Part shown: piece by piece, positions 6,756 to 55,724 of the stretch | Layout of the letters: each line of letters starts with the position of its first letter | How positions within the stretch are numbered: position 1 is the stretch's first letter | Assembly: GCA_903828515.1 (NCBI GenBank) | Contig: CAIKMD010000002.1 | Coordinates: forward strand, 744,001 to 808,000 | Source of the DNA: an uncultured Rhodospirillales bacterium | Lineage (GTDB): Bacteria > Pseudomonadota > Alphaproteobacteria > ATCC43930 > CGMCC-115725 | Direction: 5' to 3' | DNA length: 64,000 nt | The notes under the pieces: model-generated | The model's input: the letters and a program-made list of their open reading frames with translations, nothing else | Told to the model about the DNA's origin: nothing | Databases searched by the model: none | Made by a program: the position numbers and the translations under genes

Positions 6756-6992
6756 TCAGTCTTGAGGCGCCGAAGTCTGGAGGGCCAGTGCGTGCAATTC
6801 GTTGCCCATCCGGCCCTGTAATGCTTGGTAGACGAGCTGGTGCTGCTGGACGCGGGTCTTGCCCTTGAAGACGCGGGACACGACGGTCGCGGCATAGTGG
6901 TCGCCATCGCCGCGCAGATCGTCGATCCGTACCTCGGCATCGGGCAACCCGGCCTTGATCAACCGCTCGATTTCGCCTGCTTCGATTGCCAT
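6756..6992 (-). CDS. bolA: BolA family protein
   Basis: [73 protein letters not shown]; adjacent to grxD. Confidence 0.95.
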
Positions 6993-7012
6993 CCGAGTCC
7001 TTCGCCGGAGAC

Positions 7013-9195
<2,183 letters not shown>

Positions 9196-9199
<4 letters not shown>

Positions 9200-9885
9200 G
9201 ACAGCGCCTCCACCAGGCCTTTGAAGAACGGCACGCCGTCGAGCGAGCCTTGTAGCGGATGCGTCGCATCCTCGGGATGCGGCATCAGGCCGAGCACGGT
9301 CTTGGTCTCGTTGAAGATACCGGCGATCGCGCGCGCCGAGCCGTTGGCGTTATGCGCGTCGTCGAGCTTGCCGTCGGGCGCGCAATAGCGGAAGGCGACG
9401 CGGCCTTCGCCCTCGAGCCGGTCGAGCGTGTTCTTGTCGGCGAAGTAATTGCCGTCGTGGTGCGCGACCGGCACGTTGATGACCTGCCCCGCGTTGTAGC
9501 CGGCGGTGAACATGCTCTGGCTGGTCTCGACCCGCAGGCTGACGTTCATGCAATGAAACTTGAGCGTGCGGTTTGCCAAGAGCGCGCCGGGCAGCAGTCC
9601 CGCCTCGGTGATGATCTGAAACCCGTTGCAGATGCCGAGCACCGGCGTGCCGGCTGCGGCGCGCGCCTTCACCTCGCGCATGATCGGCGAATGCGCCGCC
9701 ATCGCGCCGCAGCGCAGATAATCGCCATAAGAGAACCCGCCGGGAATGACGATGAGATCGGCTTTGGGCAATTCCGAGTCGCGATGCCAGACCTTCAGCG
9801 GCTTCTTGCCCGACGCGCGATGGAGCGCATCGAACACATCCTGTTCGCGATTGGATCCGGGAAAGACGACGATGGCGGATTGCAT
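9196..9885 (-). CDS. purQ: Phosphoribosylformylglycinamidine synthase subunit PurQ
   Basis: [21 protein letters not shown]...[18 protein letters not shown]...[10 protein letters not shown]; 4-bp overlap with purL. Confidence 0.98.
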
Positions 9886-9898
9886 GGATTAGCCTAGT

Positions 9899-9965
9899 CG
9901 CTGCATCGACATCCTGCGTCCTTCGACAGGCTCAGGATGAGGAAAGACCGTATATGGCATTGAGT
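9899..9965. repeat. REP-like element (copy 2) in purS-purQ gap
   Basis: cgctgcatcgacatcctgcgtccttcgacaggctcaggatgaggaaagaccgtatatggcatt; about 28 bp identical (inverted) to the right arm of the 13.2 kb element. Confidence 0.7.
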
Positions 9966-9984
9966 AGCCGCGAAGAAAACCGCT

Positions 9985-10227
9985 TCAGCCGACCAGTTCA
10001 ACGCGATAACTCTCGATCACCGTGTTGGCGAGGAGCTTCTGGCACATCTGTTCCAGCGCGGCTCGGGCCTTGGCAGGATCGCGCTCGCTGATATCGAGAT
10101 CGATCACCTTGCCCTGGCGGACTTCGCCGATGCCGGAAAATCCCAGATTGCCAAGCGCATGGCCGATGGCCTTGCCTTGCGGGTCGAGCACGCCTTCCTT
10201 GGGCATGACGAAAACACGGGCCTTCAT
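9985..10227 (-). CDS. purS: Phosphoribosylformylglycinamidine synthase subunit PurS
   Basis: [46 protein letters not shown]; start ATG 10227. Confidence 0.96.
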
Positions 10228-44640: not shown

Positions 44641-45042
44641 ATGGATACCGGCAAGTTCCGTCTGCTGCATACGATGATCCGGGTGTTCGATCTCGACCGC
44701 TCGATCGATTTCTACACGCGTCTGATGGGCATGAACCTCATCCGCAAACGCGAGGTCGAGGCCGGGCGCTATACCCTCGCTTTCGTCGGCTATGGCGACG
44801 AGGCGAACAGCACGGTGGTCGAACTCACCTATAATTGGGATCAGAAAGAACCCTACGCGCTCGGCGCGGGTTTCGGACATCTGGCGATCGGTGTCAGCGA
44901 CATTCACGGCACCTGCAAAACCCTCGCCGACGAAGGCGTGAAAATTCCGCGCCCGCCCGGCCCGCTGAAATTCGGCACTGTCAACATCGCCTTCATCGAA
45001 GACCCCGACGGCTACAAGATCGAACTGATCGAGCGGCCTTAA
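44641..45042 (+). CDS. gloA: Lactoylglutathione lyase (glyoxalase I)
   Basis: FRLLHTMIRVFDLDRSIDFYTRLMGMNLIRKREVEAGRYTLAFVGYGDE...ELTYNWD. Confidence 0.96.
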   Translation: MDTGKFRLLHTMIRVFDLDRSIDFYTRLMGMNLIRKREVEAGRYTLAFVGYGDEANSTVVELTYNWDQKEPYALGAGFGHLAIGVSDIHGTCKTLADEGVKIPRPPGPLKFGTVNIAFIEDPDGYKIELIERP

Positions 45043-45527
45043 GCCCGGGCGTCGAGGGTCTGGTTCTCGACCCGGATGCGCCAGGTAAGCATCGCGCCGT
45101 TGAGCAGCGAAAACACGATCGCGACGTCGATCTCGTGAAAGACCAGCGGCAGGACCGCGATTTCGGCGATCACCACGGCGTAATTGGGGTGGCGGATGAA
45201 GCGATAGGGACCGCGGCGCACCAGTTGTTCGCCGGGCAGCGTGATGATGCGGGTGGTCCAGTAGCGGCCGAGGCTCGCGAGGGTCCAGACGCGTAACGCC
45301 TCGATCACGACGTATACGGCCAGCCAGGACCAGTTGGGCTCGCCCTGGGCGTAGAACCAGATCGCGATGAGCCAGCCCGCATGAAGCGCCACGATCAACG
45401 GATAATGCGCAGCGCCGCGCTCGACCGCGCCACGCGCCAGAAGGGCTGTGGTGTTGGCGCGGGCGAGGAACAATTCGCCCAGCCGTTCGGCCGCGACGAG
45501 GCCGAGGATGATGGTGACCCAGCTCAT
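45039..45527 (-). CDS. Isoprenylcysteine carboxyl methyltransferase (ICMT)-family protein, candidate BpsB-like polyketide O-methyltransferase
   Basis: ALRVWTLASLGRYWTTRIITLPGEQLVRRGPYRFIRHPNYAVVIAEIAVLPLVF; immediately downstream of the type III PKS. Confidence 0.88.
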   Translation of the reverse strand: MSWVTIILGLVAAERLGELFLARANTTALLARGAVERGAAHYPLIVALHAGWLIAIWFYAQGEPNWSWLAVYVVIEALRVWTLASLGRYWTTRIITLPGEQLVRRGPYRFIRHPNYAVVIAEIAVLPLVFHEIDVAIVFSLLNGAMLTWRIRVENQTLDARA

Positions 45528-45536
45528 GCCCCCGAC

Positions 45537-46592
45537 TCACGCATCAAGGAGTTGAAACCCGGCGGTGAAGCCGGGGCCGAGCGCCGACATCATCATCGGG
45601 CCCTTGGCGCCTTCGCGCAGTTCGCGCTCCAGCACGAACATGACCGTCGCCGCCGACATATTGCCGTAATCCCGCAGGACCCCGCGCGCCGTTGCCAGCG
45701 TGCCCGCCTCGAGGCCGAACGCGTCTTCGAGCGCCTCGATCACCTTGGCGCCGCCGGGATGACAAACGAAATGATCGATGCTCGCGAGATCGCGGTTATT
45801 CTTGGTCAGGAAGTCGCTCGCCGCGCGTTTCAGGTCGCGTCGCACCAAGGCCGGAATATCGCGCGAGAAGATCGCCTTCAATCCGTCCTCGGCGACGTCC
45901 CAGCCCATGATGCCGAGAGATTTCGGCCAGGTGAATTCACCAGCGGCGCCGAATAACGGACCATCGCCTCTACACGACACGACTGCTGCTGCCGCGCCGT
46001 CGCCGAAGAGCGCGGTCGCCACGACATTGCTTTTGGTGAACTCGTCGCGCCGGAACGACAGGGCGCAAAGCTCGACGACGACGAAGAGGATTCGCGAGTC
46101 CGGCGCCACGCGGGCAAGATCGGCCGCGCGGCTCAGGCCGAGTACACCGCCGGCACAGCCGAGGCCGAAGACCGGCAAGCGGCGCAGGTCACGGCGCAGG
46201 CCCATCCGCTCCATCAACATCGCGTCGAGGCTCGGCGTGGCGATACCGGTGGTCGAGACGGCGACAATGGCGTCGATGTCGGCCGGCTCGAGATCGGCAG
46301 CCGCGATCGCCTTGCGCGCGGCTTCCTCGATCAGGTCGAGCGCGTGTTCGAGAAAGAGCGAATTGCGCTCCGCCCAGCCATGCGGATGGTCGTACCAGTC
46401 GAGCGGGACGGTCGAATGGCGCTTGTCGATTCCGGCATTGCCGAACACACCCATCATGCGCTCGAGTTCGGCCACGGGCGCGTGATCGAACCAATGCCAG
46501 GCGCGATCGGCGACGGCACCCTGAGCGAGGGCGTGTTGCGGCACCGCCGTGGCGATTGCGAGCAGATGAGGTTCGGTGGTCACTGGCGGCAA
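45537..46592 (-). CDS. Type III polyketide synthase (chalcone/stilbene synthase family)
   Basis: Cys-His-Asn triad contexts: PVFGLGCAGGVLGLSRAADLA, IDHFVCHPGGAKVIEALEDAF, VLRDYGNMSAATVMFVLER. Confidence 0.93.
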   Translation of the reverse strand: MPPVTTEPHLLAIATAVPQHALAQGAVADRAWHWFDHAPVAELERMMGVFGNAGIDKRHSTVPLDWYDHPHGWAERNSLFLEHALDLIEEAARKAIAAADLEPADIDAIVAVSTTGIATPSLDAMLMERMGLRRDLRRLPVFGLGCAGGVLGLSRAADLARVAPDSRILFVVVELCALSFRRDEFTKSNVVATALFGDGAAAAVVSCRGDGPLFGAAGEFTWPKSLGIMGWDVAEDGLKAIFSRDIPALVRRDLKRAASDFLTKNNRDLASIDHFVCHPGGAKVIEALEDAFGLEAGTLATARGVLRDYGNMSAATVMFVLERELREGAKGPMMMSALGPGFTAGFQLLDA

Positions 46593-47455: not shown

Positions 47456-47464
47456 GTATCGGGG

Positions 47465-48988
47465 ATGATGAGCTCACGGCAGTTCTTGTCGGGTCTGAGC
47501 GTGGGCATCTCAGTCGTGCTCCTGGCTTGCGCGCTGATCGTCTGGGAACAGGACCCCTTCGATAAATTCGATACGCGGCCCAAAACCGTTTATGGACTCA
47601 GCCGAGTTCAGGACTTTGGTGGGCTTTTGGGTTGGCAAACGAAGGCGGCGCTCACCCGACTTTATCCGCATAACGCCATCGTCGTCGGCACGAGCAAGTT
47701 GCTCGATATCGATCCGAAGGATTTGGCATTCTTCGATTACTTCAATGCGAGCGAGGCCAACGCGAACCTCGATGACATCTCGAATTATCTCGATATCGCT
47801 GCCGACGGCATGAAACTCGTCGTGCTGGGGATCGATTTTCTTCAGTTCAACGACAGCGCTAATCGAGCGCTCGATCGGAATGCCCGGGAACAAGTCAGAT
47901 TGGCTTTCGATCCGGGCGATCCCAATGCCGGGCGAAGCGATTTTTCTCGTCTGAGGGCCCCCGGTTTTCCGGCGAACATCCAGTATTTACTGAACGGTCA
48001 CGCCATACTGCAGGGTTTAGTCCAGTTGGCGCTGCGGCCAGGCGACGATTGCGCGGGGGAGATCGTTCTCTATCCGGGTGGCAATTACAACAAGATCAGC
48101 ATTCTTTCACAACAGCAGAGCGAGGAAACCGATAGCCGAGCGATCGATGAGCGCTCCTACCAAGTGCAATTGGATCACCTGCGCACCGTCAACTACGCCA
48201 ATTTCAAGTATTCGGAAAAAAGCGAAGCGGCACTCAGAATCATCAAGAAAAAGCTCGCGCAAAAAGGCATCGCAATAGTTGCTTTCCTAAACCCGATTAA
48301 CGATCGTGAATTGCCGCTTCTTCGCGATATGGGCCTTAGCCGCGATTACAACCGCTTCATAAAGGCCGTTACCGACATCTTCGGCGATGATGCCAAGATC
48401 CCATTGCAGGATTACGGCGATCCAAAATACTTCTACGATTTCGATGCGATTCATTTCCTGCCGCAAACCGGAGCGGCAGTCGTCAACCGCATGGTAGCCA
48501 GGCATTTCGGCGTGGAATTGCCTACGGGATTCGCGGTATTCGACCGCGTCAATGAATTCGAGCCAATAGCAAGCGGCGCGGAGCCGATGCACGAACCGGC
48601 CCTGGCGTTCGATCACACGATCGACACAGGATGGGTGGCGTCATCGTCGGATGCGCATCCGTGGATCGGCGCGCGACTTCCGACGACGGATGCAATCGAG
48701 AAGATCGTGCTGACCCAGACCGGCTGGCACGGTGGGCAACGAAAGGTGGTTGCCATTGAGACCAGCATGGACGGTCGGGAATGGCAAACCATGACGCCAC
48801 AACCCGTCTGCGTTCCAAGCCCGCGCAACACGCTTTATGTCGACCACGATATTTCGGCGGAATATTGGAGGGTCGCGGCTCAGGACGGGGGCGGGACACC
48901 TTGGCGTGTCGATGAGCTTGCGCTTTACACGCGGCGTGCGCACACGAAAACACTCGAAGATTTTGGCGCGCGTCCGCCGACGCATTAA
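47465..48988 (+). CDS. AlgJ/SGNH-like partner protein with C-terminal discoidin (F5/8-type C)-like domain
   Basis: N-terminal TM, NAIVVGTSKLLDIDPKDLAFFDYFNASEANANLDDISNYLDIA; C-terminal ALAFDHTIDTGWVASSSDAHPWIGARLPTTDAIEKIVLTQTGWHGGQRKVVAIETSMDGREWQTM. Confidence 0.6.
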   Translation: MMSSRQFLSGLSVGISVVLLACALIVWEQDPFDKFDTRPKTVYGLSRVQDFGGLLGWQTKAALTRLYPHNAIVVGTSKLLDIDPKDLAFFDYFNASEANANLDDISNYLDIAADGMKLVVLGIDFLQFNDSANRALDRNAREQVRLAFDPGDPNAGRSDFSRLRAPGFPANIQYLLNGHAILQGLVQLALRPGDDCAGEIVLYPGGNYNKISILSQQQSEETDSRAIDERSYQVQLDHLRTVNYANFKYSEKSEAALRIIKKKLAQKGIAIVAFLNPINDRELPLLRDMGLSRDYNRFIKAVTDIFGDDAKIPLQDYGDPKYFYDFDAIHFLPQTGAAVVNRMVARHFGVELPTGFAVFDRVNEFEPIASGAEPMHEPALAFDHTIDTGWVASSSDAHPWIGARLPTTDAIEKIVLTQTGWHGGQRKVVAIETSMDGREWQTMTPQPVCVPSPRNTLYVDHDISAEYWRVAAQDGGGTPWRVDELALYTRRAHTKTLEDFGARPPTH

Positions 48989-48991
48989 GCG

Positions 48992-50560
48992 ATGCTCTTC
49001 AACTCATACATATTCATCGTCGTCTTCCTGCCGCTGACGCTGGCGGGATTTTTCCTCGCGGGCCGTTTCAGCCATTCCGCAGCCACCACGTGGCTGCTGG
49101 TCATGTCGATCGTGTTTTACGGCTGGACCGGGTTCGCGCTGGTGCCGCTTCTCATCGGTTCGGCGCTGTTCAACTTCAGTGTCGGCGCTTTCATTCAGAC
49201 GAAGAAGGCTAAAGCACAACCAGTCGCCAAGGTCGCGATGATCTTCGGTGTTGGTGCGAACCTGGTGTTGCTCGGCTACTTCAAATATGCCGATTTTCTG
49301 ATCGACAGCGTCAACGCGATCTTTCACGGCAATGTTCGGGCGCTGCATATCGTGCTGCCGCTCGGCATTTCCTTCTTCACCTTTACCCAGATCGCCTATC
49401 TGGTGGATTGCTATAAAAAAGATATACGCGAATACAACCTCATCCATTACCTGCTGTTCGTCAGCTATTTCCCGCATCTAATCGCCGGACCGATCGTTCA
49501 TCACGCCGAGCTGATGCCGCAATTCGCCCGCAAGGCGATCGACCGGATCGACGCGACGAAAATTACTTTGGGTCTTACTGTCTTTCTGATCGGTCTGTTC
49601 AAGAAGACCGTCCTCGCTGACGGGGTCTCCGTCTATGTCGCGCCCGTGTTCGATCCGGCCTTAACCGGCCCGGTGAGCTTCAGCGCCGGGTGGCTGGGCG
49701 CGCTGGCCTACAGCCTGCAAATCTATTTCGATTTCTCCGGCTATACCGACATGGCGATCGGCATATCGGCGATGTTCGGCATTCTGCTTCCGGTCAATTT
49801 CCGGTCGCCGTACAAGGCCGCCAACATCATGGATTTCTGGCGGCGCTGGCACATCACCCTATCCCGATTCCTGCGCGATTACCTCTACATACCACTCGGC
49901 GGCAATCGTGCCGGCAAGGCGCGGCGCTACGCCAATCTGATGATCACGATGGTTTTGGGCGGACTCTGGCACGGCGCGAGCTGGACCTTCGTCGCGTGGG
50001 GTGGGCTGCACGGCCTCTATCTGGTGATCAATCACGGATGGCGATACTGGCGGCATTGGGACGGGGGCAGCGAACGCAAAGGCCTCATTACTCGTGTCGG
50101 CTGTGTCGTACTCACCTACACCGCCGTCGTCTTCGCCTGGGTTCTCTTCCGGGCGGACAGTCTAAGCGCCGCGGGCGAGATCATGCGCGGCATGCTCGGC
50201 TATCATCGATGGCTCAAGCTGATCGTCAACATGCACTTCCTGGAGCATCTGGGTAGTTTGGGGAACGCGCTACACGATTGGATTCTGGCCAGCAGCTCGC
50301 TCGACGTGCGGGATGCTTGGCCCCTGGTGCCCTGGCTCTGGATCGCGATCCTGACGACGATCGTCTGGGCCCTGCCCAACACGATGGAGCTTTTGCGCAA
50401 CCATGACGTGGCCTTGCCGGGACCGTTTCACGAACGGGCGCAGAAATATTTTGTGGCTTGGAGCTTCACCTGGCCGTGGTTGGCCTTCGACATCGTGCTC
50501 GCGTCGGTTTGTATCCTGAATATCTCGAACGTCTCGCCCTTCCTCTATTACCGGTTCTGA
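48992..50560 (+). CDS. MBOAT family O-acyltransferase (AlgI/DltB-like)
   Basis: MLFNSYIFIVVFLPLTLAGFF...PLGISFFTFTQIAYLVDCYKKD...NIMDFWRRWHITLSRFLRDYLYIPLGGNRAGKARRYANLMITMVLGGLWHGASWTFVAWGGLHG. Confidence 0.95.
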   Translation: MLFNSYIFIVVFLPLTLAGFFLAGRFSHSAATTWLLVMSIVFYGWTGFALVPLLIGSALFNFSVGAFIQTKKAKAQPVAKVAMIFGVGANLVLLGYFKYADFLIDSVNAIFHGNVRALHIVLPLGISFFTFTQIAYLVDCYKKDIREYNLIHYLLFVSYFPHLIAGPIVHHAELMPQFARKAIDRIDATKITLGLTVFLIGLFKKTVLADGVSVYVAPVFDPALTGPVSFSAGWLGALAYSLQIYFDFSGYTDMAIGISAMFGILLPVNFRSPYKAANIMDFWRRWHITLSRFLRDYLYIPLGGNRAGKARRYANLMITMVLGGLWHGASWTFVAWGGLHGLYLVINHGWRYWRHWDGGSERKGLITRVGCVVLTYTAVVFAWVLFRADSLSAAGEIMRGMLGYHRWLKLIVNMHFLEHLGSLGNALHDWILASSSLDVRDAWPLVPWLWIAILTTIVWALPNTMELLRNHDVALPGPFHERAQKYFVAWSFTWPWLAFDIVLASVCILNISNVSPFLYYRF

Positions 50561-50577
50561 GGGCGTTGCGGACTGGG

Positions 50578-51588
50578 CTATTTCGCCGGCATCAGCTTGG
50601 CATAGCGCTTGTCGACGAATTGTTCGGGCTTCAGATCGGCCTTCATCAAATTCTGCGATTTGTACCACGCGATCTGATGCGCGAGGTCGTCCAGCACGAC
50701 GCGGCTTTCGCTGTCGAGATAGGGCGTCGCGCGGTCGATCATCGGTGCGGGAATACTGGTGAACTTCGACAACAGCTCGAGCATCGCGGGCGCGTCGGGC
50801 CCGTCCTGGCGCTTGTTGTCGGCGGTGGCGAAGGCCGCGTGGTAGTCATGCGCGCCCTGGCGATAGGCGACGAGGAAGCGCCTGACCATCTCGCCGCGCT
50901 CGTCGGCTGCCTTGGTCGAGGTGAAGGCGACCGCGCCCATCCAGCCCGGCGCGAGATCGCTGATCCAGCCGAGGTTCTTGATCGTGCCGCGATCGAGCAG
51001 CGCCAAGGCCGGCGTCGCCGGCAGGACCGCCATGTCGATCTGGCCGCCGGCCAGCGCGGTGATGACGTTCGGGATCGATTGTAGCGGCCTGATGGTCAGC
51101 GTGCTCATCGCGAATTTGTTCTTTTCGGCGATCAGCCCGACACTGTATTGCAGGCTGGTCCCGACCTGGGTCATGCCGAGAGAATGGCCAGGCAGCGTCG
51201 ACGCGGTCAGCCCGGCATCGAACGCCTTGTTCGAGCCCAACAGCACGAGATTATAAAAACCTTGCCGCTCGATGGACGCGGATGCGATCACCTGGATGCG
51301 ACCCTGACTCGCCAGCGTATAGAACGCCGCGCCGAGACCGGAGACGCCGAAATCGACGTCACCCGAGGCGAGCGCCACCACCATCGGCTCGGCGCTGTCG
51401 AAATAGACCATCTGCGCGTCGAGGCCCTGTTTGGCGAAATAGCCGCGCTCGATCGCGATCGGCACCGGCGCGTAGGACAGGAGCTTGGTGATCGCGATCT
51501 TGATCGGTTCGGCGCGCGTCGGCGAAACGACGCCCAGCGCTAACGCGAGAACGGTGCCGAGGAGAACGGAGCACATGCGGCGTTTCAT
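50578..51588 (-). CDS. NitT/TauT-type ABC substrate-binding protein (paralogue 3 of tandem array)
   Basis: Signal peptide; EPIKIAITKLLSYAPVPIAIERGYFAKQGLDAQMVYFDSAEPMVVALASGDVDFGVSGLGAAFYTLASQG. Confidence 0.88.
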   Translation of the reverse strand: MKRRMCSVLLGTVLALALGVVSPTRAEPIKIAITKLLSYAPVPIAIERGYFAKQGLDAQMVYFDSAEPMVVALASGDVDFGVSGLGAAFYTLASQGRIQVIASASIERQGFYNLVLLGSNKAFDAGLTASTLPGHSLGMTQVGTSLQYSVGLIAEKNKFAMSTLTIRPLQSIPNVITALAGGQIDMAVLPATPALALLDRGTIKNLGWISDLAPGWMGAVAFTSTKAADERGEMVRRFLVAYRQGAHDYHAAFATADNKRQDGPDAPAMLELLSKFTSIPAPMIDRATPYLDSESRVVLDDLAHQIAWYKSQNLMKADLKPEQFVDKRYAKLMPAK

Positions 51589-52595
51589 TTCCCCGCAACC
51601 TTGAGCAGCGCGTAGCGGCTGTCGATCAGGTTGGACGTATCGGCATCGCCCTTCATCAGGTTCTGCGATTTGTACCAGGCGATCTGGTTGGCGACGCCGG
51701 CCGCGTCGATCCGGCCGTCGGCGTCGACATAGGGAATCGCGCGGTCGATCTCGTCGGCCGACACACCGCTGAAATCCGACATCAGCTTGAGCATCGCCGG
51801 CGCGGTCGGCTGATCCTTGCGCACGCCGTCGGGCGTCACGAACGCGTCGTGGAAATCCTTGATGCCTTTGCGATAGGCGATCATGAATTTCTTGACCATG
51901 TCGCCGCGCTCGTTGGCGGCCTTGGTCGAGACGAAGGCGGCGCTGCCGGTGAGGTTCGAGGCGACATCGGCCGACCAGGCGAGCAGCTTGATCTCGCCAT
52001 TCTTGATCGGTCCGAGAATGGGCGCGCCGGGCAGGACCGCGGCATCGACCGAGCCGCCGCTCAGGGCCGAGATCACGTTGCTGTTGGATTGGAGCGGCTT
52101 CACGGTCACGTCGCTCATGCTGAAGCCGTCTTTGATCGCGAGCGCGCCGATCGCATAATGCAGGCTGGTGCCGACCTGAGTGATCGCAATGCTGTGGCCC
52201 TTCAGATCGTGGACCGATTTCAGCCCGGCGTCATAAGCCTTGTTCGAGGCGACGAAAGCGAGGTTGTAGAAACCCGGCGCGTCGCCGCCCGACGATGCGA
52301 CGAGCCGTAACTGGCCCTGACTTGCCAACGTGTAGAAGCCCGCCGACATGCCGGCGACGCCGAACGACGCATCGCCCGAGGCGACGGCGACGGCGATCGG
52401 CTGCGCGCTGTCGAAATAGACCATTTCGACGTCGAGGCCTTCGGCCTTGAAGTAACCGTGTTCGAGAGCGACCGGGACCGCCGGATAGCCGATCAGTTTC
52501 GAGATCGCGACCTTGACCGTCTCGGCGCGTGCGGGCGCGGTCAGAGTCAGTGCGAGCGCAGCGGCAAGCATGCTCCGCGACGTGATTCCAGGCAT
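51585..52595 (-). CDS. NitT/TauT-type ABC substrate-binding protein (paralogue 2)
   Basis: ETVKVAISKLIGYPAVPVALEHGYFKAEGLDVEMVYFDSAQPIAVAVASGDASFGVAGMSAGFYTLASQGQLRL; 4-bp overlap with paralogue 3. Confidence 0.88.
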   Translation of the reverse strand: MPGITSRSMLAAALALTLTAPARAETVKVAISKLIGYPAVPVALEHGYFKAEGLDVEMVYFDSAQPIAVAVASGDASFGVAGMSAGFYTLASQGQLRLVASSGGDAPGFYNLAFVASNKAYDAGLKSVHDLKGHSIAITQVGTSLHYAIGALAIKDGFSMSDVTVKPLQSNSNVISALSGGSVDAAVLPGAPILGPIKNGEIKLLAWSADVASNLTGSAAFVSTKAANERGDMVKKFMIAYRKGIKDFHDAFVTPDGVRKDQPTAPAMLKLMSDFSGVSADEIDRAIPYVDADGRIDAAGVANQIAWYKSQNLMKGDADTSNLIDSRYALLKVAGK

Positions 52596-52614
52596 CGTCG
52601 TCCTCCCCGTTTTA

Positions 52615-53619
52615 TTATTTTCCCGCGTGAAGCGGGATCGCGTAGCGGCTGTCGATCAACTGGTCGGCCTTGACCTCGCCCTTCATGAGGCCCTGGCTGG
52701 CGTACCAGGTAATCTGACGGCCGATATCGGTGCTGTCGAGCCGCCCTTGCGCATCGAGATAGGGTGTCGCGCGGTCGAGATCTTCGGTCGAGACGCCGGT
52801 GAAATTCGACAGGAGGGTGAGCATGGCGGGCGCGGTAGGTCCGTTCTGGCGCTTCTCGCCGGGCCCGGTGAAGGCGTCGTGATAATCCTGAGTACCGTGG
52901 CGATAGGCGAGGAGGAAGCGTTTCACCAGGTCGCTGCGATCATTCGCCGTCTTGGTCGAGGTGAAGGCGGCGCTGCCGGTCCAGCCCGGCGCCAGATCGC
53001 CGACCCAGCCGAGCACCTTGATCGTGCCCTTTTGAATGAGCGGCAGCGCGGGGGTGGCGGGCAGGATGCCGACATCGATGGTGCCGCCGGTCAAGGCCGA
53101 GATCACGTTGCTGTTCGATTGCAGCGGCTTCATGTTGAGCGACTTGAAATCGAAATTGTATTTATCGGCGACGAGGCCGGCGCTGTAGTGGAGGCTGGTG
53201 CCGACCTGGGTCACGCCGATCGAATGGCCGGGCAGGTTTTTGGCTTCCTTCAATCCGCCTTCGAAGGCCTTGATCGATTCAAGAAAGACCAGATTGTAGA
53301 AACCCGGCTGCTCGCCTGACGAGCCGGCGAGGAGACGCAACTGGCCCTGGCCGGCCAGCGTGTAGAACCCTGCGCTCAGGCCCGAGATGCCGAAATCGAT
53401 ATCGCCCGAGGTGACGGCGACCGCGATCGGTTGCGCGCTGTCGAAGAACACCATCTCGGCATCGATGCCCTGGGCCTTGAAATAACCGCGCTCGATCGCG
53501 ATGGGCGTCGCCGGATAAGAGGCGAGCTTCGACAGCCCGACCTTGATCGTCTCGGCTTGCGCCGGCCCCATGAGTGCCAAGGCGACGACGCCGGCAAGTG
53601 CAACAACACCCGATTTCAT
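52615..53619 (-). CDS. NitT/TauT-type ABC substrate-binding protein (paralogue 1)
   Basis: MKSGVVALAGVVALALMGPAQAETIKVGLSKLASYPATPIAIERGYFKAQGIDAEMVFFDSAQPIAVAVTSGDIDFGISGLSAGFYTLAGQG. Confidence 0.88.
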   Translation of the reverse strand: MKSGVVALAGVVALALMGPAQAETIKVGLSKLASYPATPIAIERGYFKAQGIDAEMVFFDSAQPIAVAVTSGDIDFGISGLSAGFYTLAGQGQLRLLAGSSGEQPGFYNLVFLESIKAFEGGLKEAKNLPGHSIGVTQVGTSLHYSAGLVADKYNFDFKSLNMKPLQSNSNVISALTGGTIDVGILPATPALPLIQKGTIKVLGWVGDLAPGWTGSAAFTSTKTANDRSDLVKRFLLAYRHGTQDYHDAFTGPGEKRQNGPTAPAMLTLLSNFTGVSTEDLDRATPYLDAQGRLDSTDIGRQITWYASQGLMKGEVKADQLIDSRYAIPLHAGK

Positions 53620-53642
53620 CGATCTTTCCTCCGGAACGGAAC

Positions 53643-55724
53643 TCAACCCGATCTGATGTAGCGCACGGCGTGGTCGCGGCCAAACAGATAAAGCAGCGTG
53701 CGCAGCGCCTCGCCGCGCGGGCTGGCGAGCGTCGGATCGCGGGTCAGGATCAGCTTGGTGTCTTCGCGCGCCGTCGCCAGAAGATCGCTGTGGACCGCGA
53801 GATCGGCGAGGCGCAATTCGGGCATGCCGCTCTGGCGCGTGCCGAGCACTTCGCCCGCGCCGCGCAGGCGCAAATCTTCTTCGGCGATGCGGAACCCGTC
53901 GTCACTGTCGCGCAATATCTTCAAACGCGCTGTGGCGGTCGCGCTGAGCGGGGCGGTATAGACCAACAGGCAGGTCGAGGCGGCGTCGCTGCGGCCGATG
54001 CGCCCACGCAGCTGATGCAACTGAGCAAGGCCGAAGCGTTCGGCATGTTCGACCACCATGATCGTGGCGGCGGGTACGTCGACACCAACCTCGACCACCG
54101 TGGTCGCGACCAGAAGGTCGATCGCGCCATTGGCGAAGGCGGCCATCGCAACGTCGCGCTCGGCGCCTTTCATCTTGCCGTGGACGAGACCGACGCGGGC
54201 GCCGAAAATTTTCTTCAACGCCTCGAAACGCTCGGTCGCGGCGGCAAGGTCGCTGAGTTCCGATTCATCGACCAGCGGGCAGATCCAGTAGATCTTGGTG
54301 CCGCTGTCGAGCGCGCGTTTGACCGCCTGGATGACATCGGGCAGACGGTCGGCGGGCAGGGTGCGCGTCGTAATCGGCTTGCGGCCCGCCGGCTTCTCGG
54401 TCAGGTGCGAGGAATCGAGATCGCCATAGGCCGTGAGCATCAGGGTGCGCGGGATCGGCGTCGCGGTCATGACGAGAATATCGACACCGTCGCCTTTCTC
54501 GGCGAGGGCCATGCGCTGTTCGACGCCGAAGCGGTGTTGCTCGTCGATCACGGCAAGCGCCAGATCCTTGAACACGACATCGTCGGAAAAGAGCGCGTGG
54601 GTCCCGACCGCGATGCCGATCTGGCCTGCGGCGAGGCGTTCGAGGATGGCGGCGCGCGGCTTGCCCTTCTCGCGTCCGGTGAGCAGCGCGATCTCGACGC
54701 CCGAGCCTTGGGCAAGCTTGGTCAGCGTCGCGTAATGCTGGCGCGCGAGAATTTCGGTCGGCGCCATCAGCGCGGCCTGCGCGCCGGCCTCGACCGCGTC
54801 GAGCATCGCGGCGAGGCCGACCACGGTCTTGCCGCTGCCGACATCGCCCTGCAGCAGACGCATCATGCGCGAGGGCTGCGCCATGTCGTGTGCGATCTCG
54901 TCGATCGACCGGCGCTGCGACGGGGTGAGGCTGAAGGGGAGACCCGCGAAGACCTTGGCGCGCAGCGTGCCGGGCGCGGTGACGGATCGACCCGCGACGC
55001 GTTTGACGTGTTCGCGCATCAGGCCAAGCGCCAACTGGTTGGCCAGCAGTTCGTCATAGGCGAGGCGCATGCGCGGCTTGGTCGTCGGCTCGAAGTCTTC
55101 GGCGCGCTCGGGCGTGTGCGCGGCTTCGAGGCTGGCGCGCCACGACGTCCAGCCTTCGCGCTGTTGGTAAGCGGGGTCGAGCCATTCCGGCAGGTCGCGC
55201 ACGCGGGTCAGCGCGCTTTCGACCGCCTTGCCCATGATCCGCAGGCTCAACCCGGCGGTCAGGCCATAGACCGGCTCGACCGGCTTCATCTTCGCCGCGT
55301 CCTCGGGCGAGAAGATATGGTCGGGATGGGTGATCTGGACGACGTTGTTGTAGTGCTCGATCTTGCCGCTGATGACGCGCGTCGCGCCGACCGGCAGGAG
55401 CTTTTCGAGGTAGTCGCCCTTCACATGGAAGAACACGAGGAACAGGGTGCCGGTCTCGTCGCGGCATTTGACCCGGTAGGGCTGGCGCGGGTTGTTCGGA
55501 ATTTGGTGCGCCTCGATCGTGACCGTCATGGTCGCGATCACGCCGTCCGGGGCATCGGCGATTTTGGGCGCAAAGCTGCGGTCGATCAGCCCGGCCGGCA
55601 AATGCCACAACAGGTCGACGACCAGCGGCAGGCCCAGTGTCTCGAACAATTTGGCAAGCCGCGGCCCCACGCCCTTCAAGGACGTGACCGGCGCGAAGAG
55701 CGGGTTTAGGATATCGGGACGCAA
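53643..55724 (-). CDS. recG: ATP-dependent DNA helicase RecG
   Basis: LLQGDVGSGKTVVGLAAMLDAVEAGAQAALMAPTEILARQHY...VIDEQHRFGVEQRMAL...TATPIPRTLMLTAYGDLD...QLHQLRGRIGRSD. Confidence 0.97.
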   Translation of the reverse strand: MRPDILNPLFAPVTSLKGVGPRLAKLFETLGLPLVVDLLWHLPAGLIDRSFAPKIADAPDGVIATMTVTIEAHQIPNNPRQPYRVKCRDETGTLFLVFFHVKGDYLEKLLPVGATRVISGKIEHYNNVVQITHPDHIFSPEDAAKMKPVEPVYGLTAGLSLRIMGKAVESALTRVRDLPEWLDPAYQQREGWTSWRASLEAAHTPERAEDFEPTTKPRMRLAYDELLANQLALGLMREHVKRVAGRSVTAPGTLRAKVFAGLPFSLTPSQRRSIDEIAHDMAQPSRMMRLLQGDVGSGKTVVGLAAMLDAVEAGAQAALMAPTEILARQHYATLTKLAQGSGVEIALLTGREKGKPRAAILERLAAGQIGIAVGTHALFSDDVVFKDLALAVIDEQHRFGVEQRMALAEKGDGVDILVMTATPIPRTLMLTAYGDLDSSHLTEKPAGRKPITTRTLPADRLPDVIQAVKRALDSGTKIYWICPLVDESELSDLAAATERFEALKKIFGARVGLVHGKMKGAERDVAMAAFANGAIDLLVATTVVEVGVDVPAATIMVVEHAERFGLAQLHQLRGRIGRSDAASTCLLVYTAPLSATATARLKILRDSDDGFRIAEEDLRLRGAGEVLGTRQSGMPELRLADLAVHSDLLATAREDTKLILTRDPTLASPRGEALRTLLYLFGRDHAVRYIRSG

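Follow-up and report, generated by a model that had tools for sequence, protein, structure and literature searches.

Organization of the locus

The window, a 64,000-nucleotide stretch of DNA from an uncultured Rhodospirillales bacterium, carries two adjacent genes on its plus strand. The first, P0001 (47465..48988 including the stop; coding 47465..48985), opens with ATG, closes with TAA and encodes 507 amino acids; the second, P0002 (48992..50560 including the stop; coding 48992..50557), follows after a gap of 3 nt and encodes a 522-residue MBOAT O-acyltransferase (PF03062). Both open reading frames are present as described in the first-pass annotation of this DNA, which had also pointed to a membrane anchor and a VVGTSK motif in P0001: hydropathy analysis places a single N-terminal membrane span at residues ~6-28, and the GTSK of the motif comprises residues 75-78. 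The signal anchor and a predicted periplasmic SGNH/DltD-like acyltransferase domain, recognized from conserved residues, AlphaFold modeling and fold searching, together occupy 47465..48529. They are followed on the same strand by an F5/8 type C (discoidin, galactose-binding-like) domain at 48530..48985 (PF00754, residues 373-476).

The pair is flanked by genes for a DUF502 protein and for NMT1-like ABC substrate-binding proteins and, in agreement with the annotation, is not adjoined by any polysaccharide synthesis gene. The NMT1-like proteins are encoded by three tandem paralogs on the minus strand (50581-53646) with no adjacent permease or ATPase; a genome of the same genus, G001, has four (L192). 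On the far side of DUF502, at 45042-46592 of the minus strand, lie a type III polyketide synthase (PKS) of the chalcone synthase family and an isoprenylcysteine-methyltransferase (ICMT)-like gene, a combination that we take to resemble alkylresorcinol/alkylpyrone gene pairs and that much of the family retains next to DUF502.

P0001 contains a DltD-like SGNH domain

In a Pfam scan, the domain between the anchor and the tail of P0001 had no match, and the models for DltD (PF04914), PatB (DUF459) and the AlgX family did not match P0001 at E-values up to 10. A search of genome contigs for close relatives of P0001 found none, after which the partners of its relatives were reached through the MBOAT alignment. 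Homologues of P0001 were taken as the genes adjoining related MBOATs, and were aligned with it in a first set of 9 and then a set of 42. Identity to P0001 in the SGNH domain is low among these relatives (16-23%). Across the 43 aligned sequences, P0001 included, G75, S77 and H330 are nevertheless invariant (43/43), and position 327 is Asp in 36 and Glu in 6 (Asp or Glu in 42/43); S77, D327 and H330 are the catalytic triad that we propose from this alignment.

A PDB sequence search with P0001 or its family profile returned no significant match. The AlphaFold model of P0001 is confident over most of residues 1-355, some loops excepted, and when this model was used for a fold search of the PDB the best 12 matches were all DltD (E-values of 2.1e-5 to 3e-4), with TM-scores of just 0.31-0.42, partly since the 130-residue tail of P0001 is unmodeled. 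The SGNH-like fold anticipated in the annotation is thus borne out by the predicted structure. Its suggested likeness to AlgJ and AlgX is not: the catalytic residues of AlgX are D174, H176 and S269 (PMC4148444), and circular permutation, which puts Asp/His ahead of Ser, characterizes both the AlgX and the DHHW family (PMC9487903). In P0001 the order is instead the canonical one, S77 lying ahead of D327/H330 with the DxxH last, and the P0001 model matches DltD. We therefore rejected P0001 as a member of the AlgJ/AlgX group.

When the 43 alignment members were scanned against Pfam, three matched DUF1574 and two weakly matched Lipase_GDSL_2; for DUF1574, a 2022 review listed no known activity (PMC9487903). 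P0001 thus falls within a wide range of SGNH partners encoded beside MBOATs, most of them unnamed, and is the one such protein in its genome. Partner types shared with Bradyrhizobium loci suggest an alphaproteobacterial source for the window. We know of no characterized member of its SGNH subgroup.

P0002 carries an acyl-shuttle motif at its own C-terminus

P0002 matches PF03062 with an E-value of 4e-36. Its relation to DltB is evident both in sequence (E 7e-31) and in predicted fold (E 2.8e-13), although its score of 174 bits falls short of the DltB equivalog cut-off of 375. It is the one MBOAT of its genome. Its C-terminal sequence, FLYYRF, fits the FxYxxF acyl-shuttle motif with Y519 as the tyrosine, and H327, F517, Y519 and F522 are invariant in 37 homologues. 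Of the 140 MBOAT ORFs in the loci, 136 terminate in the motif; the four that do not include P0002 itself, clipped where its locus stops. The P0002 model (pLDDT 86.5) has extra C-terminal helices at residues 445-460 and 494-510, beyond which the model is of low confidence; extra helices and an end of this kind have been described for MBOATs that lack a DltX partner (PMC12148441).

SGNH and MBOAT genes form a conserved pair

The SGNH-MBOAT pair is a conserved module. The first set of pairs was found through the MBOAT; in samples that started from the SGNH homologue, counted in loci with only ~1.5 kb of flank, a same-strand MBOAT was adjacent to 20 of the 24 homologues from the class and 16 of the 24 from the phylum (~75% together). 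This adjacency spans phyla, and there were no opposite-strand pairs among 100 paired homologues (0/100); these counts include a few overlapping loci and use ORF-based gene calls. Within the same 100 pairs the MBOAT gene comes first in 95 and the SGNH gene in 5, the latter, rare order being common to P0001/P0002 and four others, among them a pair from the same family (L051). Conservation of the two genes together, the PF03062 match, the conserved Ser/His and the DltD fold all uphold the annotation's proposal of an acylation pair.

Polysaccharide esterases are numerous among the SGNH proteins that bear carbohydrate-binding modules (PMC9487903), and P0001 might by that token remove acyl groups, its proximity to an MBOAT being incidental. 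We judge this highly improbable: same-strand adjacency to an MBOAT recurs across phyla, P0001 is membrane-anchored with DltD as its nearest fold, and the shuttle motif of P0002 needs an enzyme to receive the acyl group.

The F5/8 tail of P0001

The match of PF00754 to P0001 exceeds the curated cut-off of 28.2 bits both with the whole protein (32.7 bits, E 9e-8) and with the tail alone (36.0 bits, E 8.8e-9), as expected from the annotation's discoidin-type C-terminus. Residues 374-507 have an AlphaFold pLDDT below 50; tail homologues are absent from the input alignment, and the tail was modeled without confidence because the aligned homologues all lack such a tail. A jelly-roll fold is suggested for it by the Pfam match.

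This is the one PF00754 domain in its genome. Pfam scans of the 43 alignment members and of further long-tailed ones detected no other F5/8 domain, and when every ORF of every locus was searched by phmmer with the P0001 tail, the tail itself was the one significant match. The tail was seen in none of ~120 sampled SGNH homologues other than P0001, in samples that comprise a single genome for each species, taken evenly from the larger groups, and that may miss rare F5/8-tailed partners. When tail homologues were sought in 289 genomes of the class, one further match appeared, a marginal one (E 9.7e-4, G002).

Tails of other kinds occur. SGNH partners from Paenibacillus (L080, L082, L084 and L113) have C-terminal tails of ~143 residues. 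Four aligned Paenibacillus sequences match Cu_amine_oxidN1, an instance of such an enzyme with another type of accessory tail. Unclassified tails of ~160-190 residues are found on the SGNH homologues of L083 and L087; in the latter, from Paramagnetospirillum kuznetsovii (6972-10150), one MBOAT is followed by two SGNH homologues with tails of ~165 residues that have no Pfam match. Open frames of ~950 residues in two further loci (L230:1181-4027 and L231:2009-4906) end in an SGNH domain of the P0001 group, and that of L230 opens with an AMP-binding enzyme domain, reminiscent of a fusion between an acyl-activating enzyme and the transferase.

Besides sugars, discoidin domains can have lipids and proteins as ligands, and the Cu_amine_oxidN1 tails of the Paenibacillus partners make such tails look like exchangeable accessories. 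Both observations would suit a pair that acylates as proposed and an F5/8 domain that tethers the enzyme to some other surface component or to the membrane, which is possible but, in our estimation, somewhat doubtful. The precedent of AlgX points the other way, its C-terminal module being thought to help bind the polymer that is acylated (PMC4148444).

The same precedent divides the annotation's remark that a built-in discoidin module is unusual. A carbohydrate-binding tail on an SGNH partner is not new in itself, as AlgX has one; the F5/8 kind of module is what stands out among the ~120 homologues, and in the literature covered its presence on a non-permuted SGNH partner, seen in a single genome, appears to be new. 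The full texts covered, which leave most subscription journals outside, held nothing relevant on an MBOAT together with a discoidin or CBM32 domain.

Probable insertion of the pair between conserved genes

In G001 the block that flanks the pair is present in the same order, beginning with lpxI, lpxB, a glyoxalase-like gene, the ICMT-like gene, the type III PKS and DUF502 and continuing with the NMT1-like binding proteins, recG, a metE-like gene, an amidohydrolase and mfd, and no pair separates DUF502 from the binding proteins. Nine other genomes have recG directly after DUF502. Between the two congeners, identity of the flanking genes is 54-84%; G001 has its own pair placed elsewhere, with an MBOAT 44% identical to P0002. 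Synteny thus delimits an inferred inserted segment of 47456..50577, for which no flanking direct repeats of at least 14 nt were found.

The lower GC content ascribed to the accompanying gene was confirmed: P0001 has a GC of 0.558 versus 0.638 +/- 0.026 (mean of 47 gene calls in the window) and a GC3 of 0.655 versus 0.80 +/- 0.05, and P0002 has a GC of 0.578 but a near-normal GC3 of 0.774. Synteny and the lower GC of both genes therefore support insertion of the pair in the lineage of the window, in keeping with the acquisition that the annotation had suggested.

Candidate acceptors

An XrtA/PEP-CTERM exopolysaccharide cluster is encoded in the same genome, unlinked to the pair (contig C9, L241 3483-13906), and comprises an export protein, a chain-length determinant, a tyrosine kinase, exosortase A, a deacetylase and glycosyltransferases. 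The XrtA polymer is a possible acceptor and is named here as a candidate. The pair of L051, which shares both family and SGNH-MBOAT order with P0001/P0002, is set among Wzz/kinase, glycosyltransferase and FkbH-like genes; the same-genus pair (L043) adjoins asparagine synthase and housekeeping genes.

With no exopolysaccharide gene next to the pair, and with PatA/PatB as the best-studied Gram-negative pair that uses the same relay (PMC12148441), the substrate could instead be peptidoglycan or a lipid-linked or periplasmic glycan, the F5/8 domain binding that polymer. We regard this as unlikely, given that P0001 does not match the PatB (DUF459) model in Pfam and that the L051 pair lies in the polysaccharide gene context described above. 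For peptidoglycan there is the further objection that the usual ligands of F5/8 domains are galactose-type or other glycans, not peptidoglycan.

Proposed mechanism

We conclude that P0001 and P0002 very probably constitute an MBOAT-SGNH acylation module, which would relay acyl groups to an envelope or exported polysaccharide. Counting against it are the absence of a polysaccharide gene next to the pair, the low SGNH identity among relatives, the poorly modeled tail and the rarity of this gene order. The relay and its direction are proposed by analogy with studied homologues. PatA, a Gram-negative MBOAT, auto-acetylates the tyrosine of its C-terminal FxYxxF, and PatB can use the acetylated peptide as a donor, passing the acetyl to a peptidoglycan mimetic, a relay that was extended to other MBOAT-SGNH pairs in the same study (PMC12148441). 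Taken with the FLYYRF terminus of P0002 and the invariant residues, these findings make a relay from H327 through Y519 and S77 to a polymer hydroxyl the best-supported explanation. P0002 would take up an acyl group at the cytoplasmic side, most likely acetyl from acetyl-CoA, and H327 would load it onto Y519 in the C-terminal tail. Exposed to the periplasm, this tail would pass the acyl group to S77 of membrane-anchored P0001, whose putative S77-D327-H330 triad would transfer it to a hydroxyl of the polysaccharide, with the F5/8 domain presumably assisting in binding the acceptor. Acetyl is suggested as the group because the motif sits on the MBOAT itself, an arrangement linked to acyl-CoA donors (PMC12148441).

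More tentatively, the pair may represent an undescribed subtype of MBOAT-SGNH system, in which the fused F5/8 domain sets the acceptor and the two genes were acquired as a self-contained cassette, the polysaccharide genes being elsewhere. Many polymers of the bacterial surface are modified by MBOAT-SGNH pairs, only a minority of which have a known acceptor, and a recognizable sugar-binding-type domain on the partner offers a direct handle for finding one. Such a subtype would also illustrate the targeting of a mobile pair to a polymer encoded elsewhere in the genome.

Comparison with known systems

One close parallel is DltB/DltD, which with DltX serves the D-alanylation of teichoic acid. P0002 is homologous to DltB in sequence and fold, the nearest solved structures to P0001 are those of DltD, Ser precedes Asp/His in both, and the FxYxxF motif is common to the two systems. 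The motif is on DltX in the Dlt system, however, and on the C-terminus of P0002 itself here; P0002 falls below the DltB equivalog cut-off, P0001 has no Pfam DltD match and bears an F5/8 tail, and the gene context is Gram-negative. PatA/PatB, which O-acetylates peptidoglycan, shares the Gram-negative setting and an MBOAT with a C-terminal FxYxxF beside a membrane-anchored SGNH protein, but P0001 differs in its F5/8 tail and its want of a DUF459 match, and no Ape1 gene is adjacent. AlgI/AlgJ/AlgX, the alginate O-acetylation system, likewise combines an MBOAT with SGNH partners, and the SGNH domain of AlgX precedes a carbohydrate-binding module; unlike P0001, AlgJ and AlgX are circularly permuted, and alginate genes are absent near the pair. 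The unnamed SGNH partners beside MBOATs have the same domain, conserved residues and adjacency as P0001, and differ from it in the absence of an F5/8 tail from the sampled homologues and in a gene order that mostly places the MBOAT first.
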